Origin: Paratrimastix pyriformis
Taxonomy: Eukaryota > Preaxostyla > Paratrimastigidae
Assembly: GCA_027972325.1 (NCBI GenBank)
Contig: JAPMOS010000009.1
Coordinates: forward strand, 511,001-575,000
Length of the DNA stretch: 64,000 bases
Direction of reading: 5' to 3'
In this document: in pieces, positions 26,851 through 31,875 of the stretch
Layout: every line of letters starts with the position of its first letter
Position numbering within the stretch: the stretch's first letter is position 1
Translations under genes and position numbers: made by a program
The notes under the pieces: model-generated
Database searches by the model: none
Seen by the model: the letters and a program-made list of their open reading frames with translations, nothing else
What the model was told of the DNA's origin: nothing

Positions 26851-29800
26851 ATGCTTCCCCCATCACGGACCACCGATTCCCACCAACCTCAAATCTCTCC
26901 TCAGCGGGCGCCATCTCCTCCATTTCCCTCTCCTCCTCCCGCTCCCGCTCCCGCTCCCGCTCCCGCTCCCGCTCCCTCGGCTTCAGCTTCGGCTTCGGCT
27001 TCGGCTTCGTCCTCTGGTGGTCGTTTTCACATTAACTCTAAAATGCGCATCGCCATCAAGCCCCCGGCTCCCCCCGCTGCCTCTGTCCAGCCCATTTCCA
27101 TCCCCACTCCCTCTGCGCCCCAACCGACCTCGCCCCCGTCCGACCGTGATGTTCCCCCCAACCCAGCTGGCTCGGCTGCTCCGAACACAGCATGGCTCCT
27201 GGCTCCCGAACGTCCCCCAGCCGCCAACTGCATCTGTGTGTCCACCCGACAGCGTGGCAACCCGCTCCTTGGCCACATCCACATCATGAAAACCGAGTTC
27301 GCCCGAGTCATTCCGGACTTTGTGCTGGGCCGGGCCACATGCGCGCTCTTCCTGAGGTCTGGGCTTGTTGAGATTTTCTTCTGGAATCACTTGATCAGTC
27401 TGCAGTATCACATGCTCCATCCACAATACCTCCGCACCCGACTGGCAGAGTTGGGCCCGCACTTCTACCGGCTCAAGGTCGTCTTGTGCTACGTCGATGT
27501 ACAGGTTTGGCCACGCCAGCATCCCTGCTGCATGCTCACTGTCTCTCTCTCCAAGGAAAACATTGGTCCTTCGTTGGAAGAAATCACTCTGACGACGATC
27601 AACTTTCAGAGTACCCTGATTCTCGCGTGGAGGTCGGCCACAATCCTGTTGCTTTGAGCAGATGCGAACTTTCTTTGTTTTTTGAATTCCAGCCTTTCAG
27701 AAGCAGGACAATATCTCGAGATGTACAGAGCATTCGAAGATCGCTCTGCAGAAAGTATCCAGGGGAAGTCGGACGAGGGGATTTATTCCAAGGTCTGAGA
27801 CTCTGCGCGGAGCGTGACATAAATCATTGGAATTTAGGTGACCGAATGCTTGACACAAGTTCCTTCTGTGAACAAGAATGATGTCGCCAATTTGGCCACT
27901 TCTTTTGAGGTCTGCTTTTCTTGTTTTTGTTTCTTCTGCCCGGGGAGCGATTCGACGCCGGAAAAGGGGACAAGGGACAAACATGTTCACCTACCTGTCT
28001 TTCCGCTACGTCATTGGGACCCCCTTGGTTGCTGCTGCTTGCTTTCTGCACGCTCTCACCCGACCCCATCCATATTTACGGTTGTTCCTCTTCATGATCC
28101 TGGGCGGTTTGTCTCGCTCTTCTTCCGGCTTTTTTGACTTTCTGCAGTCTATGGAACGTTGATTGAAATGAATGCTGTGATTATTTCGCATCTCACTGCC
28201 ATTCCTAAAGATTGGAACAGGTCATACACCCGCTGCAATTACGCACTGATGGTGGTCTTTGGTAGCCTGCTTTCTCTGGGCCGGATTGTTCTAACTGTCG
28301 GATTAAGTTGGAGTGGCATTATCTACTCGACGATCATGGTGGCCGAGGCTGCATTCGCCACCCTTTCCCCCTGGACTCGATACCTTTTTGCGGGTTTCGT
28401 CATGCTCAATTTGGATTTTGCCTTGGATCCTCTGACCAGCAAAGTTGGCGAGGGAGAACTGGAATGGATCAAAATACCTTGTGTGAATTTGTTCTCTTGG
28501 TTCGTCATCCCCACAGTCTTCTACTTTTTCTACACCATCGATGTTCGTCCGCATTCCCGTCCTTTCTCAACCTCGGCTGCTTTCGCTTTTAGTGGCCCCC
28601 TTTCCCACGAGGAGTTCCTTACATTTACCACATTGGAGTGATTGAGGACACAGTCACCCCTCTGCGCTACATGTACTGGGGCCTCGGCGTCATACCCCTC
28701 TCTCTTGGGGCAGCGCTCCCTCTCATCACTTACTTTAAGCAGTTCGTGTGTAGTTACGCGGTTTGTCACTGTCGTTGGGCGTCACCTTTTCAACTCTCGC
28801 ACATCTAGTTGACAAACTTTACCGTGTCCATGTCCATCGCTTTTCTCCTCTCTCTTGTCACCTGTCTCATGGCACTGCGGGCAAGGGTCCAGCTCGCTGC
28901 CGATCACTGGAGCGACGCATTCCCCTCTCTTGTTCTCGTGGGCGTTCCACTTGCCTACATTGTGGTTGCCGCACTCGTGACCGAGAGTGCCTCACGCCTC
29001 TACCGACTCACTCTCATGTGCACTGCCAGTTCCCCGATGGTTGTAATCCTGTTATGCACTGCTCTCCCCCTCGTCAAGCGGAAGGGGAAGGAGACAGAAC
29101 CACAGCCCAAAGAAGAGTAACGGTCACCCAGAGGCTTTTTTGTTTTTCGTGTTTTTTTCTCGCCACAACCTCCTTCCTTTTTCTTGTCTGGCGACGCGGT
29201 CGAACACCCAAATACCATCAGGATTTCTCCAACAACGTCTCTTTTTCGACGCGCAGACACTGGGGAAACTCTTCCGTGCGCCGCTCGACGCGCTTTCTGT
29301 CCTGCGTGGCCTGGGCGACAAGAAGGTCCGCCGTTGCGTTTTGTCACCATTTGGCCCACTTTTTCTCCCGTCCGTAGGCCAAGCGGCTCCATCAGGCGTT
29401 CCACGAGCCCATCTTGCCCCACCAACGGCAGCCTGCCCCAGCTCAGAAAAAGCAGACCCAATTACAGTCGGGTTTCTTCAAGCCTTCCTCCTCTCAACCG
29501 CAGCCGATCCCAAGCTCTCCACCTCAAGACGACCAGCAACTGCCCGCCTCCGCTCCTTCTCAGCCGCCCCGCCCCACTCAAACTCGTGCCCAGTCCCAGT
29601 CGGCAGCGGCCAGTGGACCGCCCTCGGTGATCATCCTCGATGACGACGACACGGACGACCTGGGGCCGACGGGGGCCGACAGTACCCCGGCCGCCTCGAC
29701 GGCAGCGCGCTCACCCACCAACCGACCGCTGACCCCACCAACACCACCAACACCACCGAAGCCGAAACCACCCGCGCCGCACACACAGCCGATGGCACCG

Positions 29801-30298
29801 CAGCCGATGGCGCCCGCGCCGCAAACACAGCCGATGGCGCCCGCGCCGCAAACACAGCCGATGGCACCAGGGGCAGCAATTCCGGTTCCGCCGCCTTCGC
29901 CAACCACCCCGCCAACGCCGGCAGACACACAGCCGCCGCCGCCGTTGCCGCTGCCATTGCCCGTCCCACTTGCGCTGTCAGAAGAGGGCCCGAATGCAGC
30001 CCAGACAGTACCAGAGCCCGCGCCGGTTGCTGGGGCGCCTGCTGCCCTGGAGGACCGGGGGGCGGAGGGCGGGGACGACAGCGACGAGTGGACCGAGGAC
30101 GATGACCGGACCGCGGACGACCGGGGCCCTGTCAAACGCCCCCGCGAGTCGACATCGCCCCTCCTCGTGGCCGGAACGCCTCCACTCCCCAAGAGAGGGA
30201 GCGACGAGGCGGAGCTGGTCCAGCTGGAGCCGATCGCGTTCTCGCCGCCCCACTCGCCGCCGCCCGGGGGGAAGGGCGGAGCCGACGACCCAGGGTAA
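26851..30298 (+). CDS. ERCC1: DNA excision repair protein ERCC1 (Rad10/Swi10)
   Basis: ERCC1 is the non-catalytic partner of the XPF nuclease in nucleotide-excision repair. Exons: 26851-27356, 27399-27504, 27556-27632, 27693-27792, 27838-27909, 29257-29325, 29378-30298; phases agree throughout and give 616 residues. The central domain is clear (CICVSTRQRGNPLLGHI, VIPDFVLGRATCALFLS, YHMLHPQYLRTRL, LILAWS, EAGQYLEMYRAFE, VTECLTQVPSVNKND). The tandem helix-hairpin-helix follows (LSVLRGLGDKKAKRLHQAF). A long Pro-rich N-terminal leader and a roughly 290-residue disordered Pro/Gln/acidic C-terminal tail make it about twice the length of human ERCC1 (297). Donors are GTCTGG, GTTTGG, GTCGGC, GTCTGA, GTCTGC and GTCCGC. 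The 1347-bp intron 27910-29256 encloses another complete gene. The AT-richer exons at 27.3-29.3 kb differ from the GC-rich tail. Confidence 0.93.
27983..29120 (+). CDS. Multi-pass membrane protein nested in an ERCC1 intron (CruF/DUF422-like motif)
   Basis: Exons 27983-28106, 28148-28542, 28593-28745 and 28809-29120 join in phase (1, 0, 0) into 327 residues with its own ATG and TAA, all inside ERCC1 intron 6 on the same strand. About seven or eight hydrophobic segments are visible (for example VIGTPLVAAACFL, ALMVVFGSLLSLGRIVL, VNLFSWFVIPTVFYFF, FPSLVLVGVPLAYIVVAAL). The tail is Lys/Glu-rich and probably cytoplasmic. The stretch LNLDFALDP, followed about 20 residues later by IPCVNLFSW, recalls the D..LDP...GVP..NF.GW signature of carotenoid-biosynthesis CruF/DUF422 membrane proteins, and YGTLIE may be the upstream Glu motif. 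That family link is inference. Donors are GTTTGT, GTTCGT and GTGTGT; the last is the only anchored donor here with a purine at +3. Confidence 0.75.
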
Positions 30299-30420
30299 CA
30301 GCAACAAAGACGAGAGGGGGGCCTTTGCTATTTTCCATCATCCTCAAACAAGTTGATGCCGGGCTCAAAAAAAGGTGGGGCGGGGAAAGACACAAACAAA
30401 AGAGGTCCCCACGAATGTGC

Positions 30421-30440
30421 AGGGGGGGGGGGGGGGGGGT
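30421..30440. repeat. Poly-G run next to the YIPF stop codon
   Basis: About 19 consecutive G on the plus strand (poly-C in the YIPF mRNA sense) directly downstream of the YIPF stop, in the short gap between the convergent ERCC1 and YIPF genes. Confidence 0.85.
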
Positions 30441-30442
30441 CC

Positions 30443-31875
30443 TTAGTGGGCGTACGCGTAGACGAAGAAGAAGAACTCCATGAAGAGAGAGATCCCCACG
30501 CTGGCCAGCACGTACAGGCCCAGAAAGAGGACCGTCCGCCACAGCGAGCCGCCCTCCATGAACAGCCTGAGAACGGGTGAGTGCAGCAGAGGGGCGAGAG
30601 AGGCAGGCGGGCGGACGGACCCCCAGAGATTCCGGCAGACGAAGGCCGCCGACATGGCGCACGCGAGGACGATCAGCACCCACCGCAGGGCGGCCCAGGG
30701 CAGGATGGAGACGATGGCCACGGGCAGGTAGACCGTGAAGGAGTATCCCACCACGCAGATCATGTCCACCAGCGAGACGGTCGTGGTGGGTCCCGCCTTG
30801 GGCTGGGCGGCGGGGGCGGTGGTGGTGGGCGCTGGCGCGGGGGTGCCGATCGGGGCACTAAAGACATCGGCCGGGTTTGCCCCGGTCGGGTTGGGCACAG
30901 ATGTCACGGGCGGGGAACCGGCAGGTGCCTCCGGCTGGATGGGAGGGTGTGCGGTGAGGTCGGAGCGGCTGGCAGGGCGCGACAGACCTTCCGGCAGAAT
31001 GTCAGCAGGAGCCAGAGACCTCCGGAACAAAACAGCAGGAAGGGATAGAGCGAGGCCGTGGCGTAGGTGACATCATAGAAGTTGTAGCGCCAGGTGGGCT
31101 GGGCCTCGGTGGGGACGAATTCGAACCACGACGCCAGGTTGCCCACGATACCCATGAGAAAGATCAGACTTGTGATGATCCAGAAGGGGCCGTACCTGGG
31201 GGAAACCAGTGATGAGAGTGCGGAGAGTGCCGCGGAGAGTGCCGCGCAGACAAGTCAGAGTTGCGCCGAGTCGCCAGAGTCGGAGCCACTGCCGCGGGGG
31301 GCTGGGCTTTCTCGCCCGGGAAAATCATCCCGCCTGGGTCCACCACGGCGGTTGAGGCACTGGACGAGCTCGGAACCCCGTCATTCAAGGAGCGCCAGAA
31401 AGCGTCCGTGATGGGGATGAGAGAGAGAAGCAGCCGCTTACCAACCATCTTCGTATCGACATTGAAGTAACGTTGCCAGAACCGCAGCTTCCAAAAGTGT
31501 GCATCACCAACAGTGAGGGGCCCACCATCTCCGGGAGCCACAGGAAGACCTGCCGGAGCAGCTGGGGGTTGGGCGAGCTGGGCGGGGGCCAACGGGGGAG
31601 GAGCCGGCTCCGACGAAGTCACAAAAGGATTCGGTGCCGAGGTGGTAGTTGCGGGGTTAAGGAAGGGGTATGGATCTGAACGGGCATTGTTATAAAGAGA
31701 ATTAATTAGGCATTCTAAGACCATTGCCTTCTGTGTAAATTGTGGGCTGAAACTGGAGAGTAGGTGGAACCGGCGGAGCCGGAATCGTGGTTTTAGACTC
31801 GGGAGTGGCCGTTTTCAGAGGAAACGCTTGCGCACGGTTCGCGGAAATAGTGGCCTCCGACGAGGTTCTTTGCAT
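30443..31875 (-). CDS. Yip1 domain family protein (YIPF1/YIPF2-like)
   Basis: YIPF proteins are five-TM Golgi/ER membrane proteins that bind Rab GTPases and act in vesicle traffic. Exons (minus): 31875-31722, from 31675 into about 31360, 31195-30988, then from about 30925 to 30443 with an internal GTCCGT intron. The family signature is present in order: FWQRYFNVDTKMVGKRLLLSLIP, a junction to YGPFWIITSLIFLMGIVGN, YATASLYPFLLFCSGGLWLLL, DMICVVGYSFTVYLPVAIVSILP, then two more TM helices. The N-terminus is a Pro-rich cytosolic tail. The start ATG is chosen because exon 1 joins exon 2 in phase through a GTCTTA donor. That ATG lies 3 bp from the divergent RPA34 start. The gene converges on ERCC1, with about 145 bp between the stops. 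Confidence 0.85.

Follow-up and report, generated by a model that had tools for sequence, protein, structure and literature searches.

Simple nested gene pairs have been catalogued in human and mouse, where the two partners share a strand in 76 of 296 (26%) and 55 of 248 (22%) cases, respectively, and where the internal gene is typically intronless, according to PMC8467205. Same-strand nesting is already known as a minority arrangement, a guest gene with introns of its own being less usual. Consequences for the host have been described for H13/Mcts2, where the host transcript is polyadenylated early as a result of nested-gene transcription (PMC13309782), and in minigenes, where tandem L1 elements and the tandem nested gene KTI12 exemplify host interference by intronic transcription (PMC3192792). 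Here, a locus of the free-living flagellate Paratrimastix pyriformis (Metamonada; Preaxostyla) is described, located in a stretch of 64,000 nucleotides (nt) of contig JAPMOS010000009.1 (assembly GCA_027972325.1; the window, to which all positions refer), in which a complete four-exon gene for a predicted membrane protein (the guest) very probably lies within intron 5 of ERCC1 (the host), on the same strand. As with the same-strand intronic genes of animals, a separate gene sits in one intron of another in the same orientation; the differences are that this guest has three introns and that the other host introns measure 42-60 nt. Because about a quarter of human and mouse simple nested pairs are same-strand, the ERCC1 nesting belongs to a known kind, and "minority" suits it better than the "much rarer" of a previous sequence-only reading of this DNA (PMC8467205). 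A further likeness is found in the shintrons of mirusviruses, which likewise place a protein gene inside a spliceosomal intron; as presented in PMC12768974 these are nested endonuclease genes, whereas the guest matches PF04240, has its own introns and was found in one copy. Among open-licence papers, those that mention both ERCC1 and a nested gene appear to be off-topic, and none was found that describes another gene within ERCC1.

The host gene occupies positions 27043-30298 of the plus strand and comprises seven exons encoding 552 amino acids (aa) counted from the ATG at 27043; a second in-frame ATG at 26851 is open as well, which leaves the start position unsettled. A Pfam scan detected the Rad10 domain (PF03834, 119.6 bits, E 8.5e-35), and the spliced segment aligned with residues 101-294 of human ERCC1 (E 1.4e-51) free of gaps at the junction of exons 5 and 6 (27909/29257), the helix-hairpin-helix C-terminal part carrying on across the host intron in the same alignment, with PF14520 by itself scoring 26.1 bits, slightly below its cut-off of 27. 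Since the protein alignment is gap-free at this junction, intron 5 can be taken as genuine, barring a broken ERCC1 at this locus; no second ERCC1 copy was found among the scored candidates of the P. pyriformis genome. The continuation of ERCC1 from 27909 to 29257 proposed by the sequence-only reading is thus borne out, and the intervening intron starts with GT and ends with AG. Its 1347 nt stand out among the ERCC1 introns, which measure, in order, 42, 51, 60, 45, 1347, and 52 nt.

This length also bears on a different explanation, in which ERCC1 is split into two transcripts joined by trans-splicing, with the guest as a normal gene in between. Such splicing is documented in Giardia (PMC6679479, PMC5224939), a metamonad too, in which other sequence likewise separates the gene parts, and ERCC1 intron 5 is far longer than its neighbors. 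The two intron halves of ERCC1 (27910-27982 and 29121-29256), unlike those of the split Giardia genes, show no complementarity: they pair at -38.3 kcal/mol, and 186 of 300 shuffles paired at least as well. Trans-splicing was rejected on this chance-level pairing and is hardly credible; the ERCC1 parts are collinear, on one strand, and 1.3 kb apart, so ordinary cis-splicing is enough.

The guest is a distant PF04240 (Caroten_synth, CruF-like) protein by sequence comparison, with a putative hydratase activity. When the profile was run against the whole genome, a single match was obtained (28276-28551, 34.7 bits, E 4.5e-7; curated cut-off 25 bits), and guest exon 2 alone scored 32.8 bits (E 8.3e-8). 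Bacterial relatives were fetched as DNA with a Bacteroidota motif, which gave 78 loci. Of these, 71 yielded open reading frames (ORFs) that were 180 aa or longer once trimmed to the first Met, and the other seven were dropped; the five ORFs submitted to Pfam were all assigned to PF04240. The best blastp match between the guest and these ORFs had an E-value of 5.7e-10, and a profile built from the 71 motif-bearing ORFs scored the guest at 25.1 bits over residues 84-171, compared with 9.3 bits for the best of 500 guest shuffles. An alignment of 49 rows was made of the guest and 48 ORFs less than 60% identical, selected from 66 complete ORFs of 190-260 aa. Guest identity to the 48 ORFs is 14-24%, and all 11 columns invariant among them are present in the guest, including D131, F132, P136, P152, N155, and W159; the guest shares with the PF04240 proteins of Bacteroidota the conserved core DF..(E/D)P...IP..N...W. 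It differs from them at most near-invariant columns (see below) and in about 150 further residues after the matched core, which are largely hydrophobic with four hydrophobic peaks. The carotenoid context of CruF-like proteins may be another difference: PF00494 and PF05834, representing the first and the cyclase steps of carotenoid synthesis, had no match in the P. pyriformis genome in an exon-by-exon search, which may miss small exons. No second guest copy was found among the scored candidates of this genome, and none of 39 pattern stretches in viral contigs was confirmed as a guest relative.

Evidence for the splice sites that does not depend on reading frames comes from the U1 small nuclear RNA (snRNA) of the same organism. 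Few known RNA sequences are as conserved as the 5′ end of U1. A search of the P. pyriformis genome with the Rfam U1 model, in which scoring was applied to 41 of 992 first-look candidates, retrieved eight copies that, at 50.8-60.2 bits, fall short of the gathering score (69.5). All eight begin with AUACAGACCU in place of AUACUUACCU; the extended start reads ATACAGACCTTG in each, where the Rfam consensus is AUACUUACCUG. The complement of this altered end is AG/GUCUGU (a slash marks the exon-intron boundary), the donor type of this locus, and donors of the form GTYYG account for five of six in ERCC1 and three of three in the guest when its third intron starts at 28761. Of four U6 copies, two were read, and both retain the ACAGAG box. 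As a check outside the locus, eight CCT genes were examined, in which 38 gaps lie between matched exons; 26 gaps with an estimated intron of 35-160 nt were inspected and 23 of these offered at least one frame-consistent GT-AG pair. Counted by eye, a GTYYG donor is possible in 18 of the 23 gaps and in six of the ten with a single candidate donor, GTRAG in two of 23, and GTATG in one. The GT background at the CCT loci predicts 3.8 GTYYG and 1.5 GTRAG, and none of 100,000 simulations reached 18.

The U1 tip and the donor motif of the genome therefore look as if they had co-evolved, a reading drawn from sequence comparison. In the oxymonad Streblomastix, A, U, and G are conserved at positions +3 to +5, corresponding to GTATG (PMC1501061), and because of this the change in U1 and donors may be placed on the Paratrimastix branch. 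Elsewhere, GUUUGUU donors are described in Entamoeba, in a paper that mentions the absence of an Entamoeba U1 RNA (PMC6085484), and an alternative U1 occurs alongside the normal one in one diplonemid (PMC12621601). No report of the U1 change seen here was found among the open-licence papers listed. The change is of wider import, as it opens the co-evolution of splice sites and U1 to a direct test in a flagellate with a published genome and RNA sequencing data (PMC10703272), and gene finders built around GTAAG could be misled by donors of the GTYYG type. Two side observations concern the same RNAs: in all eight U1 copies (L109:1501-1656 and L110-L116) the tip AUACAGACCUUG replaces AUACUUACCUG and fits the donor AG/GTCTG, and AATTC stands immediately 5′ of each copy (L109:1501, L110-L116), perhaps as part of a shared promoter. 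U6 gave four matches of equal score (L117, L118), the two copies read being identical over the match.

All 79 GT sites in 27901-29256 were scored for pairing with the organism's own U1 tip. The best pairing, at -12.7 kcal/mol, belongs to the host donor; guest donors 1 and 3 share ranks 2-3 at -8.7 kcal/mol each, and guest donor 2 comes 49th (-0.8 kcal/mol). The host donor and two of the three guest donors are hence backed independently of the reading frames, because they pair well with the altered U1. The same scores bear on the start of guest intron 3: the 10-mer GCGGTTTGTC is identical at guest donor 1 (28104-28113) and at position 28758-28767, and the GT at 28761 ranks third, tied with the second, compared with rank 15 for 28746. 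Owing to this exact repeat and the far better U1 pairing, 28761 rather than 28746 is the most likely start of intron 3. The guest length of about 327 residues given by the sequence-only reading applies to donor 28746 (984 nt), and the preferred donor gives 332 aa (999 nt); its three introns are retained, with phases 1, 0, and 0 in place of the in-phase introns it described. Its start and stop codons, four exons and same-strand nesting agree with the single open frame running through all exons, and its interpretation of anatomy, strand, and nesting is supported, a separate guest transcript being a prediction from the sequence.

Taken together, the nested-gene reading as a whole is considered likely, and the guest is probably a functional PF04240 (CruF-like) membrane protein gene. 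Several results weigh against this. The canonical U1 tip still ranks the host donor fourth and guest donors 1 and 3 fifth and seventh (guest donor 2 ranks 56th of 79), and guest intron 2 is weak, its boundaries being given by the frame only. In a self-trained codon model, each of the four guest exons falls below background, the called frame still being the best of three in each, and six of the seven ERCC1 exons score below zero in the same model as well. Neither AATAAA, ATTAAA, nor AAATAA was found in 29121-29256 after the guest; they were likewise not found in the 144 nt after ERCC1 (30299-30442). An hmmscan of the full-length guest returned no Pfam family, perhaps as a result of HMMER filters penalising hydrophobic sequence, an effect supposed because exon 2 alone passes the cut-off. 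Of 18 near-invariant columns (kept by 90% or more of the aligned sequences and falling on a guest residue), only G44 and G93 are retained. G51, F70, G71, Y75, L79, N95, I134, E135, V137, A138, I139, W144, W146, Y156, F278, and F279 are changed, with L, D, L, T, S, G, L, and L at the eight from I134 to Y156, in a comparison made at 14-24% identity in which some columns are possibly misplaced. Finally, four of six tested wrong joins are in frame (27909 to 28593 or 28809, and guest exon 2 or 3 to 29257), so phase offers no protection against chimaeras.

The weak codon bias, the weak donor of intron 2, the altered PF04240 columns, and the unmatched PF00494 and PF05834 would also suit a dying or silent copy that had dropped into the intron and was carried along. 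Such a copy would have had to keep 332 codons without a stop and all 11 columns invariant among the bacterial ORFs, and no second, source copy appeared among the scored genome candidates, which makes this explanation quite improbable. The marks of an insertion were also sought, and the only direct-repeat family common to both guest flanks is T-rich.

The in-frame joins permit another arrangement, in which the guest exons are alternative ERCC1 exons and exon 5 is spliced to guest exon 3 or 4, giving one gene with two ends; joining exon 5 to 28593 or to 28809 does preserve the frame as far as the stop codon of the guest, with products of 382 and 326 aa. Against this, the guest possesses its own ATG, its recognisable domain lies in exon 2, which such products would omit, and ERCC1 exon 5 joined to exon 2 stops after four residues. 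A fusion of membrane helices to one half of the helix-hairpin-helix domain of ERCC1 is not known to have a parallel, although no search aimed at one was made. Alternative exons are regarded as very unlikely.

Nesting of this kind poses a problem for the host, since splicing to a guest acceptor would either truncate ERCC1 or give an in-frame chimaera, and something must therefore prevent such joins. One possible solution, put forward tentatively, is ordered splicing, with the guest introns removed before the host intron. Briefly, the guest would be transcribed from its own promoter upstream of 27983 and would end at its own poly(A) site within 29121-29256. In the ERCC1 pre-mRNA, the guest introns of 41-50 nt would be recognised as units and spliced first, which would use up the three guest acceptors that otherwise compete for the host donor, and the strong host donor at 27910 would then join 29256 over the remaining 1208 nt. 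Consistent with such an order, the 1347 nt of intron 5 exceed the five other ERCC1 introns and all 38 CCT gaps (estimated intron total 52-461 nt, median 114), and joining 27909 to the first guest acceptor ends ERCC1 after four more residues. The fuller proposal, that the pair survives by ordered splicing with the guest introns serving as splice-clearing devices and with a spliceosome in which the U1 tip (AUACAGACCU) was altered in step with the donor motif (GTCTG/GTYYG in place of GTAAG or GTATG), is doubtful and would more probably fail than hold. A same-strand guest with its own introns offers a natural test of how a spliceosome dealing mainly with short introns selects a remote partner when three closer ones are on offer.

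Table 1. Exons and introns of ERCC1 and the nested guest gene (window positions; a slash in a splice site marks the exon-intron boundary).
Feature	Positions	Strand	Basis
ERCC1 exon 1, coding part	27043..27356	+	Rad10 domain, frame; ATG 26851 in frame also open
ERCC1 exon 2	27399..27504	+	human ERCC1 alignment, frame
ERCC1 exon 3	27556..27632	+	human ERCC1 alignment, frame
ERCC1 exon 4	27693..27792	+	human ERCC1 alignment, frame
ERCC1 exon 5, ending ...SVNKNDVANLATSFE	27838..27909	+	human ERCC1 alignment, frame
ERCC1 intron 5 (host), 1347 nt, donor gag/GTCTGC, acceptor GCGCAG/a	27910..29256	+	gap-free alignment; top U1 pairing of 79 GT sites
Guest exon 1, ATG 27983	27983..28106	+	frame
Guest intron 1, 41 nt, phase 1, donor gcg/GTTTGT	28107..28147	+	frame; U1 rank 2/79, tied
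Guest exon 2, PF04240 match	28148..28542	+	Pfam profile match
Guest intron 2, 50 nt, phase 0, donor gat/GTTCGT, least certain boundary	28543..28592	+	frame only; U1 rank 49/79
Guest exon 3 (end 28745 if donor 28746)	28593..28760	+	frame, 10-mer, U1 pairing
Guest intron 3, 48 nt, phase 0, donor gcg/GTTTGT	28761..28808	+	frame; U1 rank 3/79, tied with 2
Guest exon 4, TAA 29118-29120, hydrophobic	28809..29120	+	frame
ERCC1 exon 6, TLGKLFRAPLDALSVLRGLGDKK	29257..29325	+	human ERCC1 alignment, frame
ERCC1 exon 7 with stop codon; long Pro-rich tail	29378..30298	+	frame

Further searches of the guest added little. An NCBIfam scan gave a single chance match (0.026), a single-sequence structure model was useless at a predicted local distance difference test (pLDDT) score of 42, and a model built with the 48 bacterial ORFs reached a pLDDT of 68.4 with no Foldseek match in the PDB at E <= 0.001. 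The second version of a self-trained gene finder called neither ERCC1 nor the guest; it returned GTCYG donors, with which it had been seeded, and was not used as evidence. Acanthamoeba was rejected as the source of the DNA because the profilin gene of this genome matches the profilins of Acanthamoeba at no better than 1.7e-6. In the surroundings, two of the three minus-strand frames were scanned over about 20.0-35.0 kb and gave no Pfam family. The 3′ end of ERCC1 (30298) lies only about 145 bp from the end of a minus-strand gene (30443-31155) called by a weak self-trained gene finder. The Pro-rich long tail of ERCC1 contains tandem QTQPMAPAP-like repeats (window 29780-29875), and the aligned human chain of 297 residues ends near where this tail begins.
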